A DNA stretch of 37,967 bases, from positions 1 to 37,967 of the forward strand of contig NZ_VBVX01000023.1 of the NCBI RefSeq assembly GCF_005981925.1, written 5' to 3'. The notes under the pieces were generated by a model that was given only the letters and a program-made list of their open reading frames with translations, made no database searches and had not been told where the DNA came from. The DNA comes from Streptomyces albidochromogenes. Its GTDB lineage: Bacteria > Actinomycetota > Actinomycetes > Streptomycetales > Streptomycetaceae. Both the position numbers and the translations under genes were made by a program. How positions within the stretch are numbered: the stretch's first letter is position 1; the number at the start of each line of letters is the position of its first letter. Positions 1,462-36,806 of the stretch are shown piece after piece.

Positions 1462-2116
1462 CTGCGATCTTTCTGCTGACTGCGCCCCCAAGGACGCGCG
1501 ACCTGTTCCAGTTCGCACGCGGGATCGCACGCGGGATCGAGCGGCGCTCACGCTAGCGGGGCCCGCCGAAGGTGCTGCGCAGCCCTTGTGAGGCTGCTGC
1601 GAAGATTTCTCGCCGGGCGACTGTGACAGGGAGTGACCGGCCGGGAGCGCATATCGCCCGCGACCGCTGCATCTGCCCAGGTCCGTGGCCCGCCGCCCGC
1701 ACGCCTTGTCGGTCCGCCCGTACGCCTCGCCGGTCGGTGGGCACGGCAACCGGGCGGGCCCACCGGCACCAGGGGGCCCGTACCCCACCTGGCTCGCCGC
1801 GGCGTCGCCGGTCAGCGGGCGTCGGCCCCGTACATCTCCGTCAGGTCGCGCGTGTGGTGCGGGGCGGCGCCGTACTGCGGCATCTCCACCGGATCCCCCC
1901 TGACTCCGTGCCGCGCAGCCGCACCACGCCCGGGACGGTCGCGCCAGCGCCACGGCCGTGGGACGGCAGGACGGTCACGGAACCCACCCGAACGGTTGTG
2001 CCTGGTTACGGCCCCCAACGCACCGCGTCAGAAAGCCTCCTGACGAACCGAACCACTGCGCATCCGATCGGTCGGACAACAACGGCCCCCGCCCGCGCTC
2101 GCGCTAGTGTGCGGGG
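1462..2116. other. Intergenic region, no convincing gene
   Basis: This 655-bp stretch separates the SCO2400-family gene from the epimerase gene and must hold both promoters. The ORFs in it are arginine/proline-rich shadows. The only small frame I looked at twice is on the minus strand, 1812-1883. It would encode a 23-residue peptide beginning MPQYGAAPHH, with GGTGGAG directly against the start. That is too little to call a gene. Confidence 0.4.
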
Positions 2117-26253: not shown

Positions 26254-26257
<4 letters not shown>

Positions 26258-26931
26258 CGGAGGAGACTCCGGGCTTCGAGGAGAAGCCCGACGTCCCTTC
26301 CGGCGCCACTCCCGAAGACGCCGAACCGCAGGCCGCCGCGCCCGACAAGGCAGGGGCCGACTCCGTCGAGGAGTCGGGCCCGGCGGCCCCGGCCGGGGAC
26401 GTACAGGACGTAGCTCTGACGGCGCAGCTGGACCAGGTACGCATGGCGCTCAATGAGCGCACCGCGGACCTCCAGCGGCTCCAGGCGGAGTACCAGAACT
26501 ACCGTCGCCGCGTGGAGCGGGACCGGGTCACGGTCAAGGAGATCGCTGTGGCGAACCTCCTGAGCGAGCTCCTCCCCACCCTCGACGACATCGGCCGCGC
26601 GCGGGAGCACGGCGAGCTGGTGGGCGGGTTCAAGTCGGTGGCCGAATCGCTGGAGACGGTCGCCGCCAAGATGGGCCTGCAGCAGTTCGGCAAGGAGGGC
26701 GAGCCCTTCGACCCGACGATCCACGAGGCTCTGATGCACTCGTACGCGCCGGACGTCGACGAGACCACGTGCGTCGCGATCCTTCAGCCGGGCTACCGGA
26801 TCGGCGAGCGGACCATCCGTCCGGCGCGGGTCGCGGTGGCCGAGCCCCAGCCCGGTGCGACGCCCGCGAAGGCGGACGAGCCCGCGGCCAAGGCCCCGGA
26901 CGAGGAGAGCGGTGGCCCGGACGAGGGCTGA
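26254..26931 (+). CDS. grpE: Nucleotide exchange factor GrpE
   Basis: The 225-residue protein overlaps the dnaK stop by 4 bp. An acidic disordered N-terminus (about 1-55) precedes the long coiled-coil helix ([20 protein letters not shown] onward, [12 protein letters not shown]). The four-helix and beta-wing head contains [33 protein letters not shown] and [20 protein letters not shown]. It exchanges ADP for ATP on DnaK. A Pro/Ala/Glu-rich tail of about 35 residues follows, which is common in Streptomyces. Placement and motifs leave little doubt. Confidence 0.97.
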
Positions 26932-26979
26932 CGTGAGCAGGAGCAGTACACCTAGCGGCAGGAAGGAGGGACGTCGGGG

Positions 26980-28167
26980 ATGAGCACGAAGGACTTCGTC
27001 GAGAAGGACTACTACAAGGTTCTCGGCGTCCCGAAGGACGCCACCGAGGCCGAGATCAAGAAGGCGTACCGGAAGCTCGCCCGCGAGTTCCACCCGGACG
27101 CCAACAAGGGCGACGCCAAGGCGGAGGACCGCTTCAAGGAGATCTCCGAGGCGAACGACATCCTCGGTGACCCCAAGCGGCGCAAGGAGTACGACGAAGC
27201 GCGTGCTCTGTTCGGGAACGGCGGCTTCAGGCCGGGCCCGGGCGCCGGCGGCGGCACCTTCAACTTCGACCTGGGCGACCTCTTCGGAGGCGCCCAGGGC
27301 GGGGCCCAGACCGGCGGTGCCGGCGGGTTCGGCGGCGGCCTCGGGGACGTCTTCGGGGGCCTGTTCAACCGGGGCGGCCCGGGTGCGCGTACCGGTACGC
27401 AGCCGCGTCGCGGCCAGGACATCGAGTCCGAGGTGACGCTCAGCTTCACCGAGGCGGTCGACGGGGCCACGGTCCCGCTGCGCATGTCCAGCCAGGCTCC
27501 CTGCAAGGCCTGCTCCGGCACGGGCGACAAGAACGGCACACCGCGCGTGTGCCCGACCTGCGTCGGGACCGGCCAGGTGTCGCGCGGCGGCGGTGGCGGG
27601 TTCTCGCTCACCGACCCGTGCGTCGACTGCCGGGGCCGCGGGCTCATCGCCCAGGACCCCTGCGAGGTCTGCAAGGGCAGCGGCCGTGCCAAGTCGTCGC
27701 GGACCATGCAGGTCCGGATCCCGGCTGGCGTCTCCGACGGCCAGCGGATCCGGCTGCGTGGCAAGGGCAGTCCCGGTGAACGGGGCGGCCCGGCGGGCGA
27801 CTTGTACGTCGTGGTCCACGTCGGCGCCCACCCGGTCTTCGGCCGCAAGGGCGACAACCTCACCGTCACCGTGCCCGTCACCTTCGTGGAGGCGGCGCTC
27901 GGCGGCGAGGTGAAGGTCCCGACGCTGGGCGGCCCGCCGGTCACCCTCAAGCTGCCGGCCGGCACCCCCAACGGCCGCACCATGCGCGCCCGCGGCAAGG
28001 GAGCGGTCCGCAAGGACGGCACCCGCGGCGACCTGCTGGTCACCGTGGAGGTCGAGGTGCCCAAGGACCTTGACGACAAGGCCCGTGAGGCGCTGGAGTC
28101 CTACCGTGAGGCGACCGCGGGGGAGGACCCGCGGGCGGAGCTGTTCCAGGCCGCGAAGGGAGCATGA
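26980..28167 (+). CDS. dnaJ: Chaperone DnaJ (J-domain protein with four zinc-finger repeats)
   Basis: The 395-residue co-chaperone has an N-terminal J domain (about residues 9-75; DYYKVLGVPKDATEAEIKKA and the HPD triad in REFHPDANKGD). A Gly/Phe-rich region follows (about 80-145). Then come four CxxCxGxG repeats (CKACSGTG, CPTCVGTG, CVDCRGRG and CEVCKGSG, about 170-235) and the C-terminal peptide-binding domains (VRIPAGVSDGQRIRLRGKG). It stimulates the ATPase of DnaK and hands over substrates. The ribosome site is AAGGAGGG. It lies 48 bp after grpE and ends just before hspR in the same operon. Confidence 0.97.
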   Translation: MSTKDFVEKDYYKVLGVPKDATEAEIKKAYRKLAREFHPDANKGDAKAEDRFKEISEANDILGDPKRRKEYDEARALFGNGGFRPGPGAGGGTFNFDLGDLFGGAQGGAQTGGAGGFGGGLGDVFGGLFNRGGPGARTGTQPRRGQDIESEVTLSFTEAVDGATVPLRMSSQAPCKACSGTGDKNGTPRVCPTCVGTGQVSRGGGGGFSLTDPCVDCRGRGLIAQDPCEVCKGSGRAKSSRTMQVRIPAGVSDGQRIRLRGKGSPGERGGPAGDLYVVVHVGAHPVFGRKGDNLTVTVPVTFVEAALGGEVKVPTLGGPPVTLKLPAGTPNGRTMRARGKGAVRKDGTRGDLLVTVEVEVPKDLDDKAREALESYREATAGEDPRAELFQAAKGA

Positions 28168-28744: not shown

Positions 28745-30742
28745 TCAGGGAAGCCGGTCCGCCGCGGGCGTCGCCGAGACCTCCGCCGACAGCGGGGCCT
28801 CGCCGCCCGCCGCGTCCACGGCCGCGACGGCGTAGCAGTACGTCGTCCCGTTGGTCACTTCGGTGTCCCTGAACTCGTTGTCCGTGGTCAGCGGCAGAAC
28901 GGTCGCGTTCTCCTTCGTGACGCCCGGCTCCGTCGCGCGGTAGACGCGGTAGCCGGTGATCGCGGGCGCGTCCTCGTCGGCCTCCACGTGGTCCCAGACG
29001 AACCACACCATCCCGTCGTGGCCCGACACGTCGTAGATCCGGGTCGCGGCCGGCGGCCGGTGGGTCTGCCGGACGGGCTTGAAGGAACCGGAGGCGGGGG
29101 AGGCGACGCCGTACGGGGTGACGGCGACGACGGCGTAGAACTGGTCGCGCTCGTCGGCCGGGACGTCGTCGACGCTCAGCGCGGGGTCCCGCGTGACGCG
29201 GTAGGGCTGCGCGTCGGGCCCGGTGGGGACGGGGCCGGCCGCGCTCCGGTAGACGCGGTACTCGGTGACCGGGACGTACGGGCCCGCCGCCCACGTGAGC
29301 TCCAGCAGGCCGCCGGTGAGCGTGCCGGTCAGCGCCCGGGGCGCGGTGGGAACGGACTCGGGGCCTACCGCGCGCGTGCCGGACACCCACAACGTCCTCG
29401 CCGACTCGTTGCCCGCCGCGTCGACGGCCGCGATCCGGTAGCGGAAGCGCTGCCCCGCCTGGCCGGTGGTGTCCCGGAGGGTCTGTTCCGCCGTCGTGCC
29501 GACCTTCGTCTCGACGTCGAGGTCCTCCGGGGCGCGGTAGACGTGGTACGCCGTGGTGTCGGCGGGGGAGCCGCTCTGCCAGGACAGCGTGACGCCCTGG
29601 TCGTCCTCGGCGGTGACGGCGGGCGCGGTGGGCGGGAGGGGCGGCGTGGTGTCCGGGCCCGCGACGGCCACGTGGGCGGCGTACGGCGAGGCGTTCCCGG
29701 CCGCGTCGAGCGCCTTCACGGTGTACTTGTACGAGGTCACCGCCGGGTCCAGGGCGGTGTCGCCGTACGCCGGCGTCCCCACCGTCGCGACCTTCGTGTA
29801 CGTGCGCGAGTCGCCGGCGGCCCGGTACACGTCGTACTTCACCGCGTCCGCGACCGCCGTCCAGGTGAGGGAGTTCGCACCGTCCGCGTGCTTCCCCGCG
29901 AGGCCGGTGGGGGCCGCGGGCGGCGTCGCGTCGACGGTGGTGACGGGCATGTCGACGCTGCCGGGGCCCTCGCGGCCCGCCTTGTCGACGGCGCGGACCT
30001 CGTAGTACCAGACCTGGCCGGTCGCGGGCGGGACGCCGGTGTACGTCGTGCCCGTGAGGTGGGCCGCGCCCGTGACGTCGACGTACGTGGCGGTGTCCTT
30101 GAGGCGGCGGAAGACGCGGTATCCGGCCAGGTCCATCTCGGCGTTCGGCGACCAGGTGACGGTGGCCCTGCGGGTGGCCGTGTCGTACGTCGTCCGCGCC
30201 CCGGCGGGGGCCAGCGGCGGCGTGGTGTCGACGTCCGGCGACGTGCGCGGCGCGTAGGTGAAGGCGACGCTCGCGGAGCCGGTGAAGGCGGCGTAGTCGA
30301 CGCGCAGGGTGTGGACGCCCCTGGGCACGGTGACGTTCACCGTCTTCTTCTGGACGGTGGTCACGTCCCGCCACAGGTCGATTCTCAGCTCCCCGTCGAC
30401 GTACACCCTGATCCCGTCGAGGGCCTCGGCGGTGAGCGAGAACGGCCCGCCCGAGCCGAAGTCCCGGGTGAGGGACCAGCGGACGCCGAAGTGGTCGGCG
30501 GGGAGGGTCACGCCCGCCGGGTCGCCGGTGCCGTAGTTCTCGCTGATGGCGGCGTCGCACACGGTCGCGGCGGGCGTTCCGGAGAAGGTCGTGTTGGCGA
30601 AGAACTGCGCCTGCCACTGCGGCGATGCGCAGGGGGCGGCGAAGGCGGGCGGGGCCCCGAGGGCGCACAGCGTCGCGGTGCCCAGCGCGAGCGCGGTGGC
30701 GGCACCGAGGCTGCGCAGGGGGGGTCTGAAGTCCACGTGCAC
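28745..30742 (-). CDS. Secreted PA14 and fibronectin type III repeat protein
   Basis: The 665-residue protein has a Sec signal peptide (about residues 1-35; FRPPLRSLGAATALALGTAT, cleavage after AFA). Then comes a PA14 domain (about 38-160; WQAQFFANTTFSGTPAATVC, IRVYVDGELRIDLWRD, VPRGVHTLRVDY), a carbohydrate-binding module. About five fibronectin type III repeats follow, each starting TPP.AP or similar and ending YRVYR or YDVYR. Streptomyces uses such proteins as extracellular or wall-bound binding proteins. No catalytic domain is present. I chose the GTG at 30742, which has GGAAAG 11 nt upstream; an alternative GTG at 30778 has no ribosome site. Confidence 0.83.
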   Translation of the reverse strand: MHVDFRPPLRSLGAATALALGTATLCALGAPPAFAAPCASPQWQAQFFANTTFSGTPAATVCDAAISENYGTGDPAGVTLPADHFGVRWSLTRDFGSGGPFSLTAEALDGIRVYVDGELRIDLWRDVTTVQKKTVNVTVPRGVHTLRVDYAAFTGSASVAFTYAPRTSPDVDTTPPLAPAGARTTYDTATRRATVTWSPNAEMDLAGYRVFRRLKDTATYVDVTGAAHLTGTTYTGVPPATGQVWYYEVRAVDKAGREGPGSVDMPVTTVDATPPAAPTGLAGKHADGANSLTWTAVADAVKYDVYRAAGDSRTYTKVATVGTPAYGDTALDPAVTSYKYTVKALDAAGNASPYAAHVAVAGPDTTPPLPPTAPAVTAEDDQGVTLSWQSGSPADTTAYHVYRAPEDLDVETKVGTTAEQTLRDTTGQAGQRFRYRIAAVDAAGNESARTLWVSGTRAVGPESVPTAPRALTGTLTGGLLELTWAAGPYVPVTEYRVYRSAAGPVPTGPDAQPYRVTRDPALSVDDVPADERDQFYAVVAVTPYGVASPASGSFKPVRQTHRPPAATRIYDVSGHDGMVWFVWDHVEADEDAPAITGYRVYRATEPGVTKENATVLPLTTDNEFRDTEVTNGTTYCYAVAAVDAAGGEAPLSAEVSATPAADRLP

Positions 30743-30855
30743 GGCTGGCGGCTCTTTCCGTTGGAGGAGAGGAGTCACAGACGTGGGGGGAGAGCGCTGA
30801 CTGTAGGGCCGAGGTTAGTGGCTGACGCCGGTCTTTTCAGGCCGAGTTGAAGGAT

Positions 30856-31869
30856 TCACCCCTGGGGGTCGACGCCCGTCGACGGCGGTGCGGCGGCCGG
30901 GACCGGGGCGATGCCGGACTGGACGAGGAGTGCGCCCAGGTGGGTGCGGCCGGAGGCGTTGAGGGCCTGCGCGAGTTTGGCGATGTGGGAGCGGCAGGTC
31001 CGTACGCTGATGCCGAGCTTGCGGGCCGCCACCTCGTCGGTGTTCCCCTCGACCAGCAGACGCGCGACGCTGCGCTGCACGGCGGTGACGGGGGTGCCCG
31101 GGGACACCGCCGGCAGCTGCTCGGCGAGGGGGGTGGCCTGGGCCCACAGCACTTCGTAGACCTGGACGAGATAGGTGACCAGGGCGGGGTGCCGGATTTC
31201 GAGGGCGACGTCCCGCTCGCGGGTGGCGGGGATGAACGCGACCGTCCGGTCGACGACGATCAGCCGCTCGATGCTCTGCTCCAGGGTGCGCACCTGCGGG
31301 TGGCCGGGGGGAAAACGCGCCAGGTAGTCCCTCAGGTGGGGGCAGTAGCGCGCCGAGTGCTGGTACAGGTGCCGGACGGTGGCGCCCCGTTCGATGGCGG
31401 GCAGGGCGTGGCCCAGGCCCTGCTGGAGGGCTTTCAGCGGCCGGGTGCTGCCCGGCTGAGCGGTCAGGATCTCCCGCGTCGCCAGGGTCATGGCGTCGTC
31501 GAGCGTGGCGTTGATGCGGGGCATGCCCTCCAGCACGGTGATGGCGAGGTTGGGGTCCTCGCTGGCGACGGCGGTGAGGGGCGCCAGCGAGTCGGCCAGC
31601 GCGGTGCTGAGCCGGATGCGCTCGCTGATCTCCCGGGTGATGGGCTGCAGCAGATGCGCGAGGCCGGTGGCCGGCGGCACCGGGCGCATCCACGCGGCGT
31701 CCCGCGGGTCGGGGTGGACCAGCGCCATGTCGATGAGGCAGGGGGCCGGCGCGAGGTCGGCCCGGGTGATGCGCCCCGTGCGCAGGGCCTCGGTGTAGAG
31801 CCGCAGCCCGGCGTCGCACAGTTCCCGGTCGCCGTGCGAATGCGCCGGTTTCGCCTCGTCTTCGCCCAT
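30856..31869 (-). CDS. LuxR-type HTH regulator A (paralogue of the gene at 31960)
   Basis: The 337-residue protein has a C-terminal HTH of LuxR/GerE type (about residues 262-320; VQRSVARLLVEGNTDEVAAR, then KLGISVRTCRSHIAKLAQAL). The N-terminal part shows CDAGLRLYTEALRTGRITRA near the start. A central domain contains QSIERLIVVDRTVAFIPATR (about 194-213), a TrmB-like or PLD-like pattern seen in Streptomyces HTH proteins of unknown ligand. It lacks phosphoreceiver and ATPase domains, so it is probably a one-component sensor. It is closely similar along its full length to the next gene, in tandem. Both are read away from the secreted-peptide gene, so this pair may sense that peptide or a derived signal. 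Confidence 0.82.
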   Translation of the reverse strand: MGEDEAKPAHSHGDRELCDAGLRLYTEALRTGRITRADLAPAPCLIDMALVHPDPRDAAWMRPVPPATGLAHLLQPITREISERIRLSTALADSLAPLTAVASEDPNLAITVLEGMPRINATLDDAMTLATREILTAQPGSTRPLKALQQGLGHALPAIERGATVRHLYQHSARYCPHLRDYLARFPPGHPQVRTLEQSIERLIVVDRTVAFIPATRERDVALEIRHPALVTYLVQVYEVLWAQATPLAEQLPAVSPGTPVTAVQRSVARLLVEGNTDEVAARKLGISVRTCRSHIAKLAQALNASGRTHLGALLVQSGIAPVPAAAPPSTGVDPQG

Positions 31870-31959: not shown

Positions 31960-32943
31960 TCAGTGATCCTGATCCAGAATGCCGGACTGCGCGATGAGGA
32001 AGCCGAGTTGGGCGCGGCTTCCGCTGCCGAGGGTGGCGGCGAGCTTGGCGATGTGAGCGCGCGCGGTCCGTACGTTCATCCCGAGCCGCCGGGCGATGGC
32101 CTCGTCGACGTACCCCTCGACGAGCAGCTTGGCGATCGAACGCTGGACGCCGGATATGCCGTCGGGTGTGTGGTCGTAGGAGACCCGCTCCTGGAGGGGG
32201 ACGCCGCGCTGCCAGAACTGCTCGAAGACGGCGGCGAGGTACTCCACCAGGCCGGGATGGCGCAGTTCCAGGGCCACTTGGCGGTCGTCGCGCGCGGGGA
32301 TGAAGGCGACCGTGCGGTCGAAGATCATCAGCCGTTCTATGAGCTGTTCCAGGGTGCGGATCTCGACCTTGCCCTCGGCCATGCGTTCCGCGTACGCGAG
32401 GGTGCCCTGGCTGTGCCGGACGGTGTGCTGGTAGAGGGTCCGCATGCTGATGCCGCGGTTGATGAGCGCCTGGCCCCGCTCCAGCGCCGAGTTGAGGGCG
32501 TGTTCGCTGCGGCCGCCGCCCGGCTGGACCGTGAGCACCTCGGTGTGGCACTCGGCCGTGGCGAGGTCAATGGCCGCGTTGATCCGGTTGATCCCCTCCA
32601 GCACGGTGATGGCGTGAGTGGTCGGCGGGTCCTGTGCGCTGATGGCCAGGAACGGCTCGAAAGAGTCGGTAAGTTCAATGGAGAAGTGTCTGCGCTCACG
32701 GATCTCGCGTTCGATCGGGTGGAGACGCTGTGCGAGTGCCGCGGACGGCGGAACCGGCCGCAGCCAGTTGGCGTCGTCCGGATCCGGGTGCAGCAGGGCG
32801 AATTCCATCAGGCAGGGAGCCGGGGCCACCTCGGTACGGGCGATGCGTCCGGTGCGCAGAGCACTGGCGTAGAGACGCCTTCCCTCGTCACAAAAATCGG
32901 TGACGGCATGGGGATGTGCCTGATTTGAGTCACTTGCGGTCAT
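31960..32943 (-). CDS. LuxR-type HTH regulator B, divergent to the secreted-peptide gene
   Basis: The 327-residue protein has the same plan as the gene at 30856. The N-terminal CDEGRRLYASALRTGRIART contains the strongly shared ALRTGRI. The shared core is LEQLIERLMIFDRTVAFIPA (about 201-220). The C-terminal HTH has VQRSIAKLLVEGYVDEAIAR and RLGMNVRTARAHIAKLAATL. The ATG at 32943 has a GGGGGTGG ribosome site. It is divergent to the peptide gene with a 130-bp shared promoter region that holds an inverted repeat (TCCTG-N6-CAGGA). It most likely controls that region. The tandem duplication with regulator A suggests two related inputs. Confidence 0.83.
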   Translation of the reverse strand: MTASDSNQAHPHAVTDFCDEGRRLYASALRTGRIARTEVAPAPCLMEFALLHPDPDDANWLRPVPPSAALAQRLHPIEREIRERRHFSIELTDSFEPFLAISAQDPPTTHAITVLEGINRINAAIDLATAECHTEVLTVQPGGGRSEHALNSALERGQALINRGISMRTLYQHTVRHSQGTLAYAERMAEGKVEIRTLEQLIERLMIFDRTVAFIPARDDRQVALELRHPGLVEYLAAVFEQFWQRGVPLQERVSYDHTPDGISGVQRSIAKLLVEGYVDEAIARRLGMNVRTARAHIAKLAATLGSGSRAQLGFLIAQSGILDQDH

Positions 32944-33073
32944 TAATCCACCCCCCAGGGTCCTGAACGTGCAGGAACATGATGCATCGGCCCAGTGGTG
33001 TTGACGTGGCCGAATAGGCCATGGTCTTGGTGCGGGGAGAGAAGAAACCCTTCAAGTGAGGACGAAGCCGACC
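32944..33073. promoter_or_regulatory. Divergent promoter region of the peptide cassette
   Basis: This 130-bp region lies between regulator B and the peptide gene. It contains an inverted repeat TCCTG-AACGTG-CAGGA (32961-32976) and a palindrome GATGCATC a few bases on. A -35-like TTGACG begins at 33001, pointing toward the peptide gene. It is the obvious place for the regulators to bind, but no operator is proven. Confidence 0.45.
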
Positions 33074-33259
33074 ATGTACAAGAGAATGCTTCGCTCGGTG
33101 CTTGCCACTGCCTTCGCAGCCGGGCTGGCCCTCGGCGCTGCAACGACCATGGACCTCGCCTGGGACAGTAAGCCTGCGGGCGGCGCCGTGGTCGGCACGC
33201 AGTCCGATACGCCGCCAGACCTTGGCTGGGACAGCGCGCCGGCCAAGACAGACGCATGA
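33074..33259 (+). CDS. Small secreted peptide with two DL(A/G)WDS.PA repeats
   Basis: The 61-residue product begins MYKRMLRSVLATAFAAGLAL, a short Sec signal peptide with a basic start and hydrophobic core (cleavage expected near residues 21-25). The rest has two related 9-residue units: DLAWDSKPA (27-35) and DLGWDSAPA (49-57), separated by a Gly/Thr/Pro spacer. The codons of the two units differ at Leu, Ser, Pro and Ala, so the protein and not just the DNA is conserved. No cysteines. The stop overlaps the next start (ATGA), which couples it to the Rieske-like gene. The start at 33074 follows GAGGA by about 11 nt; a GTG at 33056 would add six residues. A pheromone or a precursor of a modified peptide are the first ideas. 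Confidence 0.72.
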   Translation: MYKRMLRSVLATAFAAGLALGAATTMDLAWDSKPAGGAVVGTQSDTPPDLGWDSAPAKTDA

Positions 33260-33576
33260 CTGTTCCACCGGACGACCGGACCTTCAGGCGTGAAATGGCC
33301 ACTGCCTACCGATCGGGCTGGCACTTCATCGACCTCGTCACGGCCATTCCCCACCGTGGCGACTCGCTGATGGTCACCCTGTTCGGCGAGCCGATCCTGG
33401 TCGCGCGTGAAGAGGATGAGGACGTCCGTGCCTACCGGTGCCTTCGCAAGCCCCGTGGCGCCCCGCAACCCGTTCGCTGTGCCGTGCGCTACGGCATGGT
33501 CTTCGTCAATCTCGACCAGCGTGACCACCAGCTGATCGAGCCGCAAACCAGCACCGCCACCCCCCGCAGCGCCTGA
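33256..33576 (+). CDS. Rieske-like small protein lacking the iron-ligand histidines
   Basis: This soluble 106-residue protein is translated from an ATGA overlap with the peptide gene. The central part reads like the Rieske domain of ring-hydroxylating enzymes: WHFIDLVTAIPHRGD (22-36), VTLFGEPILVAREED (40-54) and VRAYRCLRKPRGAPQPVRCA (57-76), then YGMVFVNLDQRD (79-90). The usual metal sites would be CxHRG and CxxHGW. Cysteines 62 and 75 are near the right places, but both histidines are missing. A 2Fe-2S cluster is therefore unlikely. The fold may have been kept for binding a peptide or protein partner. The similarity is by eye; a profile search is required to confirm it. A very strong terminator follows. 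Confidence 0.65.
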   Translation: MTVPPDDRTFRREMATAYRSGWHFIDLVTAIPHRGDSLMVTLFGEPILVAREEDEDVRAYRCLRKPRGAPQPVRCAVRYGMVFVNLDQRDHQLIEPQTSTATPRSA

Positions 33577-33618
33577 CGCGATTCCCCCGTCGTTCCAATC
33601 GCCCAGGCGCTCCCCCAC

Positions 33619-33660
33619 ACAGCGGCGCCATCGTGGACCTGAACACGATGGCGCCGCTGT
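33619..33660. terminator. Strong bidirectional terminator closing the peptide cassette
   Basis: A perfect 17-bp stem, ACAGCGGCGCCATCGTG / CACGATGGCGCCGCTGT, with an 8-nt loop, between the convergent Rieske-like and PPOX genes. Confidence 0.85.
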
Positions 33661-33678
33661 GCTGCGTCCGCGGGGTTC

Positions 33679-34104
33679 TCAGGCCGACGCGCTCGGGGCC
33701 CGCCCCATCGCCCGGTCCAGGGTGATCTCGATCAGGACCCGGTCCGGGTTCGGCGCGGGCGTGCGCCCGTACCGCTCGGCGTAGCGGCGTACCGCCTCCG
33801 CGATCCGCTCGGGGTCCGTGACGACGACCGCGCGTCCTTCGAGCGTCGCCCAGTGGCCGCCCTTCACCTGGCAGACGGCGACCCGCGCGCCCGCCTCGCC
33901 GGCTGCCAGCACGTTCGCCACCTTGGTGCTGCTCTTGTTGGTGATCACGCGGGCGGTCCCGGCCTCCGGGTCGTACGTCACGCCCACCGGCACCACGTGC
34001 GGCGAGCCGTCCGGCCGCAGGGTTGTCAGCGTGCACAGGTGGTACTCGCGCCAGAAGGCGAGGTAGTCCGGGCTCGGGTTCCGTACGTCGAGGTGGTTGG
34101 CCAT
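33679..34104 (-). CDS. PPOX-class (pyridoxamine-phosphate-oxidase fold) F420/FMN-dependent protein
   Basis: The 141-residue protein fits the split-beta-barrel flavin family: [20 protein letters not shown] followed by [12 protein letters not shown] (about 14-45), then [20 protein letters not shown] (about 51-70), [20 protein letters not shown] (about 75-94) and a C-terminal helix. Streptomyces and mycobacterial members use F420 or FMN to reduce a substrate; which one is unclear. No Shine-Dalgarno precedes the ATG. A TACTCT hexamer ends 6 nt upstream, suggesting a leaderless transcript. The gene is divergent from clpB and shares its HAIR-box promoter region, so HspR could influence it. Confidence 0.8.

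Positions 34105-34220: not shown

Positions 34221-36806
<2,586 letters not shown>

Follow-up and report, generated by a model that had tools for sequence, protein, structure and literature searches.

We consider it highly probable that the clpB-linked locus described here, contained in a 37,967-nt stretch of Streptomyces albidochromogenes DNA (hereafter the window), is a one-component, species-specific pentapeptide pheromone system sensed by a LuxR-type regulator, LuxR1. An earlier note on this DNA had guessed at either peptide signalling or peptide modification. The signalling half of that guess is now strongly supported, as the parts occur together, the repeated peptide core is kept within and varies between species, and residues of the receptor co-vary with it; the modification half is not supported.

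Layout and distribution of the locus

The precursor is encoded by a 61-aa ORF on the forward strand (33074..33259), which comprises the leader MYKRMLRSVLA, a hydrophobic stretch and two core copies, DLAWD (33152..33166, +) and DLGWD (33218..33232, +). The ORF and its two repeats, DLAWDSKPA and DLGWDSAPA, are as had been described, with the correction that the conserved unit spans 4–5 rather than nine residues. The stop codon of the peptide gene overlaps by 4 nt, again as reported, with the start of a gene for a highly conserved 106-aa Rieske-like protein (33256..33576, +) in which the His ligands are replaced by Arg. Two regulators that are 51% identical to each other are encoded in the direction opposite to the peptide gene: LuxR1 (327 aa; 31960..32943, −), the putative cognate peptide receptor, with a sensor at approximately residues 53–250 and a LuxR HTH at approximately 260–322, and LuxR2 (337 aa; 30856..31869, −), a tandem TrmB-LuxR paralogue that we regard as accessory and the number of which varies among genomes. 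The coordinates and the level of identity agree with the proposed pair of tandem paralogues diverging from a shared promoter, the gap between LuxR1 and the peptide gene being 130 nt. A constant place for LuxR2 in the unit could not be upheld, since the number of extra paralogues ranges from 0 to 4 per locus.

The locus is flanked on one side by the gene for a 677-aa fibronectin type III repeat protein with a signal-like N-terminus (28745-30778, −), located between dnaJ and the LuxR genes, and on the other by a pyridoxamine-phosphate-oxidase-like (PNPOx) gene (33679..34104, −), a constant neighbour that we do not count as a component of the system and that was used as a control. The position of the cassette beside clpB is confirmed (clpB, 34221-36806), with grpE/dnaJ (26254-28164) on the other side. 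A perfect inverted repeat with a loop of 8 (33618..33661) is likely a bidirectional terminator. The hairpin that the earlier note had called a terminator is thus present; its stem is of 18 rather than 17 bp, it has no T tract, and a consensus terminator scan made no call there.

A first, peptide-driven scan yielded 44 Streptomyces loci, all 44 with the order LuxR1 (divergent)–peptide–Rieske-like–PNPOx, with clpB next in 43/44 and LuxR2 variable. To guard against bias towards the peptide, the Rieske-like protein was used as a second query. Of 393 Streptomyces genomes, 322 proved to carry the Rieske-like gene; across the order, a sample covering six genera had it in Streptomyces only. From these we took 209 loci. 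As a secreted-type precursor is kept directly upstream of the Rieske-like gene in 208 of them, the peptide is not a chance ORF; the precursor carries [D/E]xxW in 202/209 loci, and in all 202 of these LuxR1 is divergent and adjacent. Six further precursors start the core with N (NTSWP, NTVWP, NTQWP and NSTWP). The earlier note had allowed that the parts might never be found together, or that the repeat might not be kept in orthologues: the parts are found together at the frequencies just given, and the repeat is kept, as detailed below. The sole locus with no recognised peptide (L196; G023:C1:88194-95017) belongs to a genome with a normal locus (L195) and represents a diverged extra copy. Diverged copies of the Rieske-like gene are also seen at L197 and L200, where the peptide keeps five DIAW copies.

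Precursors begin with MYKRMLRSxLA or close variants and continue with a hydrophobic stretch and then the core, present in 1 to 20 copies that are separated by Pro/Gly/Ala-rich linkers. The core, [D/E]-X2-X3-W, comes in 39 versions across species, and yet within a single precursor it hardly varies: all copies have the same core in 155 of the 164 distinct multi-copy precursors, as compared to a mean of 4.0 and a maximum of 12 single-core precursors when cores are shuffled among precursors (permutation). Identity among the copies of one precursor is 1.0, 0.985, 0.966 and 1.0 at the four core positions, 0.72 at the next residue and 0.17–0.45 at other offsets; between precursors, the values for the core positions and the next residue are 0.78, 0.21, 0.24, 1.0 and 0.12. 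Synonymous codon differences are nearly as common within precursors as between them (at X3, 0.46 vs 0.54). With the amino acids of the core the same and the synonymous codons different, the copies are therefore old and held by selection, rather than products of recent duplication. Since 29 of 192 precursors stop exactly one residue past the final W, and none stops 0, 2 or 3 residues past it, the signal unit is most likely the pentapeptide [D/E]-X2-X3-W-X5. The window precursor, with DLAW and DLGW, belongs to the small group of nine multi-copy precursors whose cores differ, and possibly represents a transition from one word to another. One precursor (L203; 207 aa) has approximately 20 core copies: 19 read DTKW, and the final one, at the C-terminus, DQAW.

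Co-variation of putative receptor and core

To relate receptor to signal we used a co-change test on a tree of 176 loci, which scores how often a LuxR1 column changes on branches where X2 or X3 also changes. Residue 136 of LuxR1 changes with X2 on 13/17 branches (1.9 expected, z about 9), and residues 153 and 145 change with X3 on 14/19 (3.7 expected) and 8/11 (1.8 expected) branches, respectively. Weaker columns are 185, borderline for X2, and 181, borderline for X3. The mean z over 223 LuxR1 columns is near 0, and no LuxR1 column is linked to X5. In the same tree test, zero columns of the Rieske-like protein or of PNPOx track the core, and zero residues of the Rieske-like protein track the leader.

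The pairings read as a code. For X2 and residue 136 they are almost deterministic: S goes with Met in 53/53 cases, P with Leu in 21/21, T with Val in 27/27, I with Val in 43/44 and F with Ala in 3/3; for X3, T goes with Gly153 (34/35), A with Ala153 (20/22) and H with Phe or Tyr145 plus Lys181 (4/4). Disjoint sister pairs point the same way: residue 136 differs in 6 of the 9 pairs with a changed X2 vs 1 of the 41 with an unchanged one (p 3.5e-5, top of 209 columns), and residue 153 in 7/19 vs 1/37 pairs for X3 (p 1.4e-3, third of 210 columns). The sister pair L123/L160, for example, has DTHW/DSHW with Val/Met at 136. When the tree is built without LuxR1, and is then poorly resolved, the 136–X2 link is kept, and 153 and 145 leave the top list for X3. 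Because the X3 columns depend on a tree that includes LuxR1, we regard the link between 136 and X2 as firm and that between 153/145 and X3 as probable.

Two other candidates for reading the peptide were rejected. The Rieske-like protein does not qualify as a specificity partner, as zero of its columns follow the core or the leader, and LuxR2 and the other tandem paralogues do not qualify as receptors of the same peptide, as the local core is not reflected in their code positions. Nor does the code carry over to distant paralogues: the receptor next to DPGWQ, for example, has T at 136. Up to four extra LuxR paralogues are found beside LuxR1 (L032, L044, L111, L127 and others). One of the extra paralogues, on the opposite strand, is almost invariant at the code positions, where it reads MVL or LVL followed by RGL, which suggests a conserved ligand.

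Proposed mechanism and alternatives

In the mechanism that we propose, the small ORF would encode a Sec-type precursor holding one to about twenty copies of the signal, DLAWD and DLGWD in this strain. The precursor would be secreted and cut outside the cell or during export, and the freed pentapeptide would re-enter, presumably through an oligopeptide permease, and bind the PLD-like sensor of LuxR1, where 136 would read X2, and 153/145 and probably 181 would read X3. Binding would alter the interaction of LuxR1 with the TCCTG-N6-CAGGA operator and with targets elsewhere, and the Rieske-like protein may partner, in the cytoplasm, either the precursor or the response. Of this scheme, the steps that we infer are export and cleavage of the precursor, uptake of the peptide, its binding by LuxR1, use of the operator and the output.

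Alignments place the Rieske-like protein with the N-terminal Rieske region of ring-hydroxylating oxygenases, a homology that is weak and consistent. As the earlier note had seen, its metal histidines are missing: the alignments show the CxH...CxxH motif as C62-L-R64...C75-A-V-R78, with both His replaced by Arg. Mean column identity is 84–85%, and C62 is Leu in L018 and L030. The oxygenase domain is absent from the protein. Our guess is that it is a leader- or LuxR1-binding partner.

How the peptide acts could be read differently. Co-variation with LuxR1 speaks of contact or of common selection and says nothing on export, so the precursor could stay tethered or cytoplasmic and inhibit LuxR1 directly, its repeats adding avidity, rather than give rise to a secreted signal. 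We consider this unlikely, given that the precursors have a basic start and a hydrophobic stretch, that multiple copies lie between Pro/Gly/Ala-rich linkers as if to be cut out, with cores found at the extreme C-terminus, and that a purely internal inhibitor leaves the species-specific words unexplained. Less probable still is that the peptide is the core of a modified natural product (RiPP), with the Rieske-like protein as its tailoring or leader-binding partner. While the leader–core layout, the 4-nt overlap with the Rieske-like gene and the invariant core Trp would all suit a RiPP, in the Rieske-like protein both His ligands are gone and the oxygenase domain is absent, the constant neighbours in the loci read include no candidate for another modifying enzyme, and the Rieske-like residues ignore both core and leader; it is on these grounds that the modification half of the earlier guess lacks support. 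The signalling pentapeptide itself is possibly modified.

It could also be argued that neither pattern reflects selection, the identity of repeats within a genome arising from unequal crossing-over or gene conversion and the differences in LuxR1 from joint transfer of the whole block. Some precursors do contain units that look recently duplicated (L008, L041, L203). However, the linkers have not become homogeneous and the copies within a precursor differ in their synonymous codons, and the small number of LuxR1 columns that follow the core, with a mean z near 0 over 223 columns, is not as joint transfer predicts; we hold this explanation to be very improbable. The pheromone reading is the one that we retain.

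Family of the putative receptor, known systems and paralogous loci

The shared promoter carries a candidate operator, TCCTGAACGTGCAGGA (TCCTG-N6-CAGGA, 32961..32976). The palindrome is exact in 132/202 loci and is followed by a conserved AACATGATGCA; through it, LuxR1 presumably regulates its own expression. In the source genome the home site is the sole full operator match and reversed-pattern controls are equally frequent; a regulon search there with the operator found no enrichment of the motif away from the home site. A further palindrome, on contig C280, was dropped; the ORFs on either side of it resemble a transporter and a pseudouridine synthase.

The predicted structure and profile matches indicate that LuxR1 is a TrmB/phospholipase-D-like sensor joined to a C-terminal LuxR HTH. 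The sensor profile matches TrmBL2 (E 7e-7), and the LuxR1 model (pLDDT 79, pTM 0.55, from a shallow alignment of 48 sequences) has TrmBL2 and PLD enzymes as its top Foldseek matches and superimposes on the TrmB sugar-binding domain 2f5t with Z 14.8 and an rmsd of 2.5 over 129 residues. At the C-terminus, the LuxR1 family profile matches GerE 1fse (4e-7). The Pfam GerE/LuxR HTH model scores LuxR2 above the cut-off of 23.5 (26.8 bits) and LuxR1 below it (18.1). Pfam finds in LuxR1 no TPR repeats, the sensor being alpha/beta and TrmBL2/PLD-like instead; no acyl-homoserine-lactone (autoinducer-binding) domain, the sensor region being TrmB-like; and no TrmB match, the N-terminal TrmB HTH not having been found. 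That HTH is present in the paralogues L216 and L228.

Several known systems share features with the one described here. Yeast alpha-factor comes from a precursor much like ours in layout, in which several copies of a single short signal, spaced apart, are arrayed behind a secretion leader; the organism, the receptor and the processing are unrelated. Any link to the 655-Da factor that S. coelicolor imports through BldK would be speculative. Closest in logic is RRNPPA signalling, which likewise has a small precursor adjoining a one-component or cytoplasmic regulator, a short peptide, specificity groups and presumed import by oligopeptide permease; an adjacent small precursor with a signal-like N-terminus is present in all loci that we analysed. 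RRNPPA receptors have TPR repeats and are described in Firmicutes (PMC9765709), whereas LuxR1 is actinobacterial and has a TrmB/PLD-like sensor and a LuxR HTH. As receptor fold, signal family and phylum differ, the system is not a member of RRNPPA. The archaeal TrmB/TrmBL2 regulators share the fold of the sensor domain, but TrmB binds sugars and has its HTH at the N-terminus, whereas in LuxR1 the HTH is C-terminal and of the GerE type, and it is with a peptide that the protein co-varies. LuxR quorum-sensing receptors and actinobacterial LuxR solos share this C-terminal HTH, but LuxR1 has no acyl-homoserine-lactone domain. We found no description of this peptide–TrmB-LuxR system in the open-access full texts searched, and the same literature reports no Streptomyces peptide pheromone for which an intracellular receptor is known. 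While the general idea of peptide pheromones is already known, this ligand–receptor family appears to be new.

In S. coelicolor, we take SCO3661 to be clpB and SCO3668 to be hspR; by gene order alone, SCO3664 is then probably LuxR1, and SCO3665 and SCO3666 its tandem paralogues. Transposon insertions in SCO3664 (a "regulator") are among the mutants in which actinorhodin increases more than 50-fold, and in some of these mutants more than 200-fold (PMC6585502). A published list of LuxR proteins includes SCO3665 (327 aa) and SCO3666 (PMC3282765). SCO3664 is missing from that list, which the score of LuxR1 below the Pfam LuxR cut-off would explain. If SCO3664 is the receptor of S. coelicolor, the effect of its loss on actinorhodin implies that synthetic pentapeptides might switch antibiotic production and wake silent clusters. 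The specificity code lends itself to a test in which one residue (136 or 153) and one peptide letter are exchanged. On the question of what the many actinobacterial LuxR-type regulators sense, a ligand and a receptor are here named together; if true, the reading points to a hitherto undescribed peptide language among antibiotic producers.

The clpB-linked locus has relatives elsewhere. TrmB-LuxR paralogues number 1–15 per genome in the relatives sampled from five genera of the order, and in a sample of the phylum matching proteins occur in 9/170 genera. Small secreted-looking ORFs near the paralogues end in DMGWQ, DAGWQ, DLGWQ, DPGWQ, NISWD, GFGWD, DLSWG, DLTWG, GFSWG, DERWG, CGACWE, CLSCWG, CAGCWS or CTSCWG, and other ORFs near them carry DNNWP or DFVWP repeats. 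In 89 non-main loci, with ORFs called crudely and several of the pairings provisional, W is penultimate in 16 of 49 divergent secreted-like ORFs vs 8 of 144 other ORFs (p 5e-6), and it is penultimate in 10 of 211 ORFs of unrelated regions. We think it likely, though with less assurance than for the clpB-linked locus itself, that these loci represent a new class of cell–cell signalling that extends from Streptomyces to further genera of the order and in which secreted xxxWx pentapeptides (often [D/E]xxWx, elsewhere CxxCWx) are read by cytoplasmic TrmB-LuxR receptors, 1–15 per genome and probably in several parallel channels, the clpB-linked branch having a readable residue code and probably serving to restrain antibiotic production. 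The source genome itself encodes a distant TrmB-LuxR paralogue, 30% identical, with a divergent, secreted-looking 72-aa ORF that ends in DMGWQ; this unlinked pair (L215/L048) lies on contig C197, with the LuxR gene at 430-1422 (−) and the peptide, ending RDMGWQ, at 1637-1855 (+). In other genera, the ORFs at L231, L234, L277, L282 and L283 end in CxxCWx (CGACWE, CLSCWG, CAGCWS, CTSCWG, CAGCWG), and may form a subclass of these signals that carries a disulfide.
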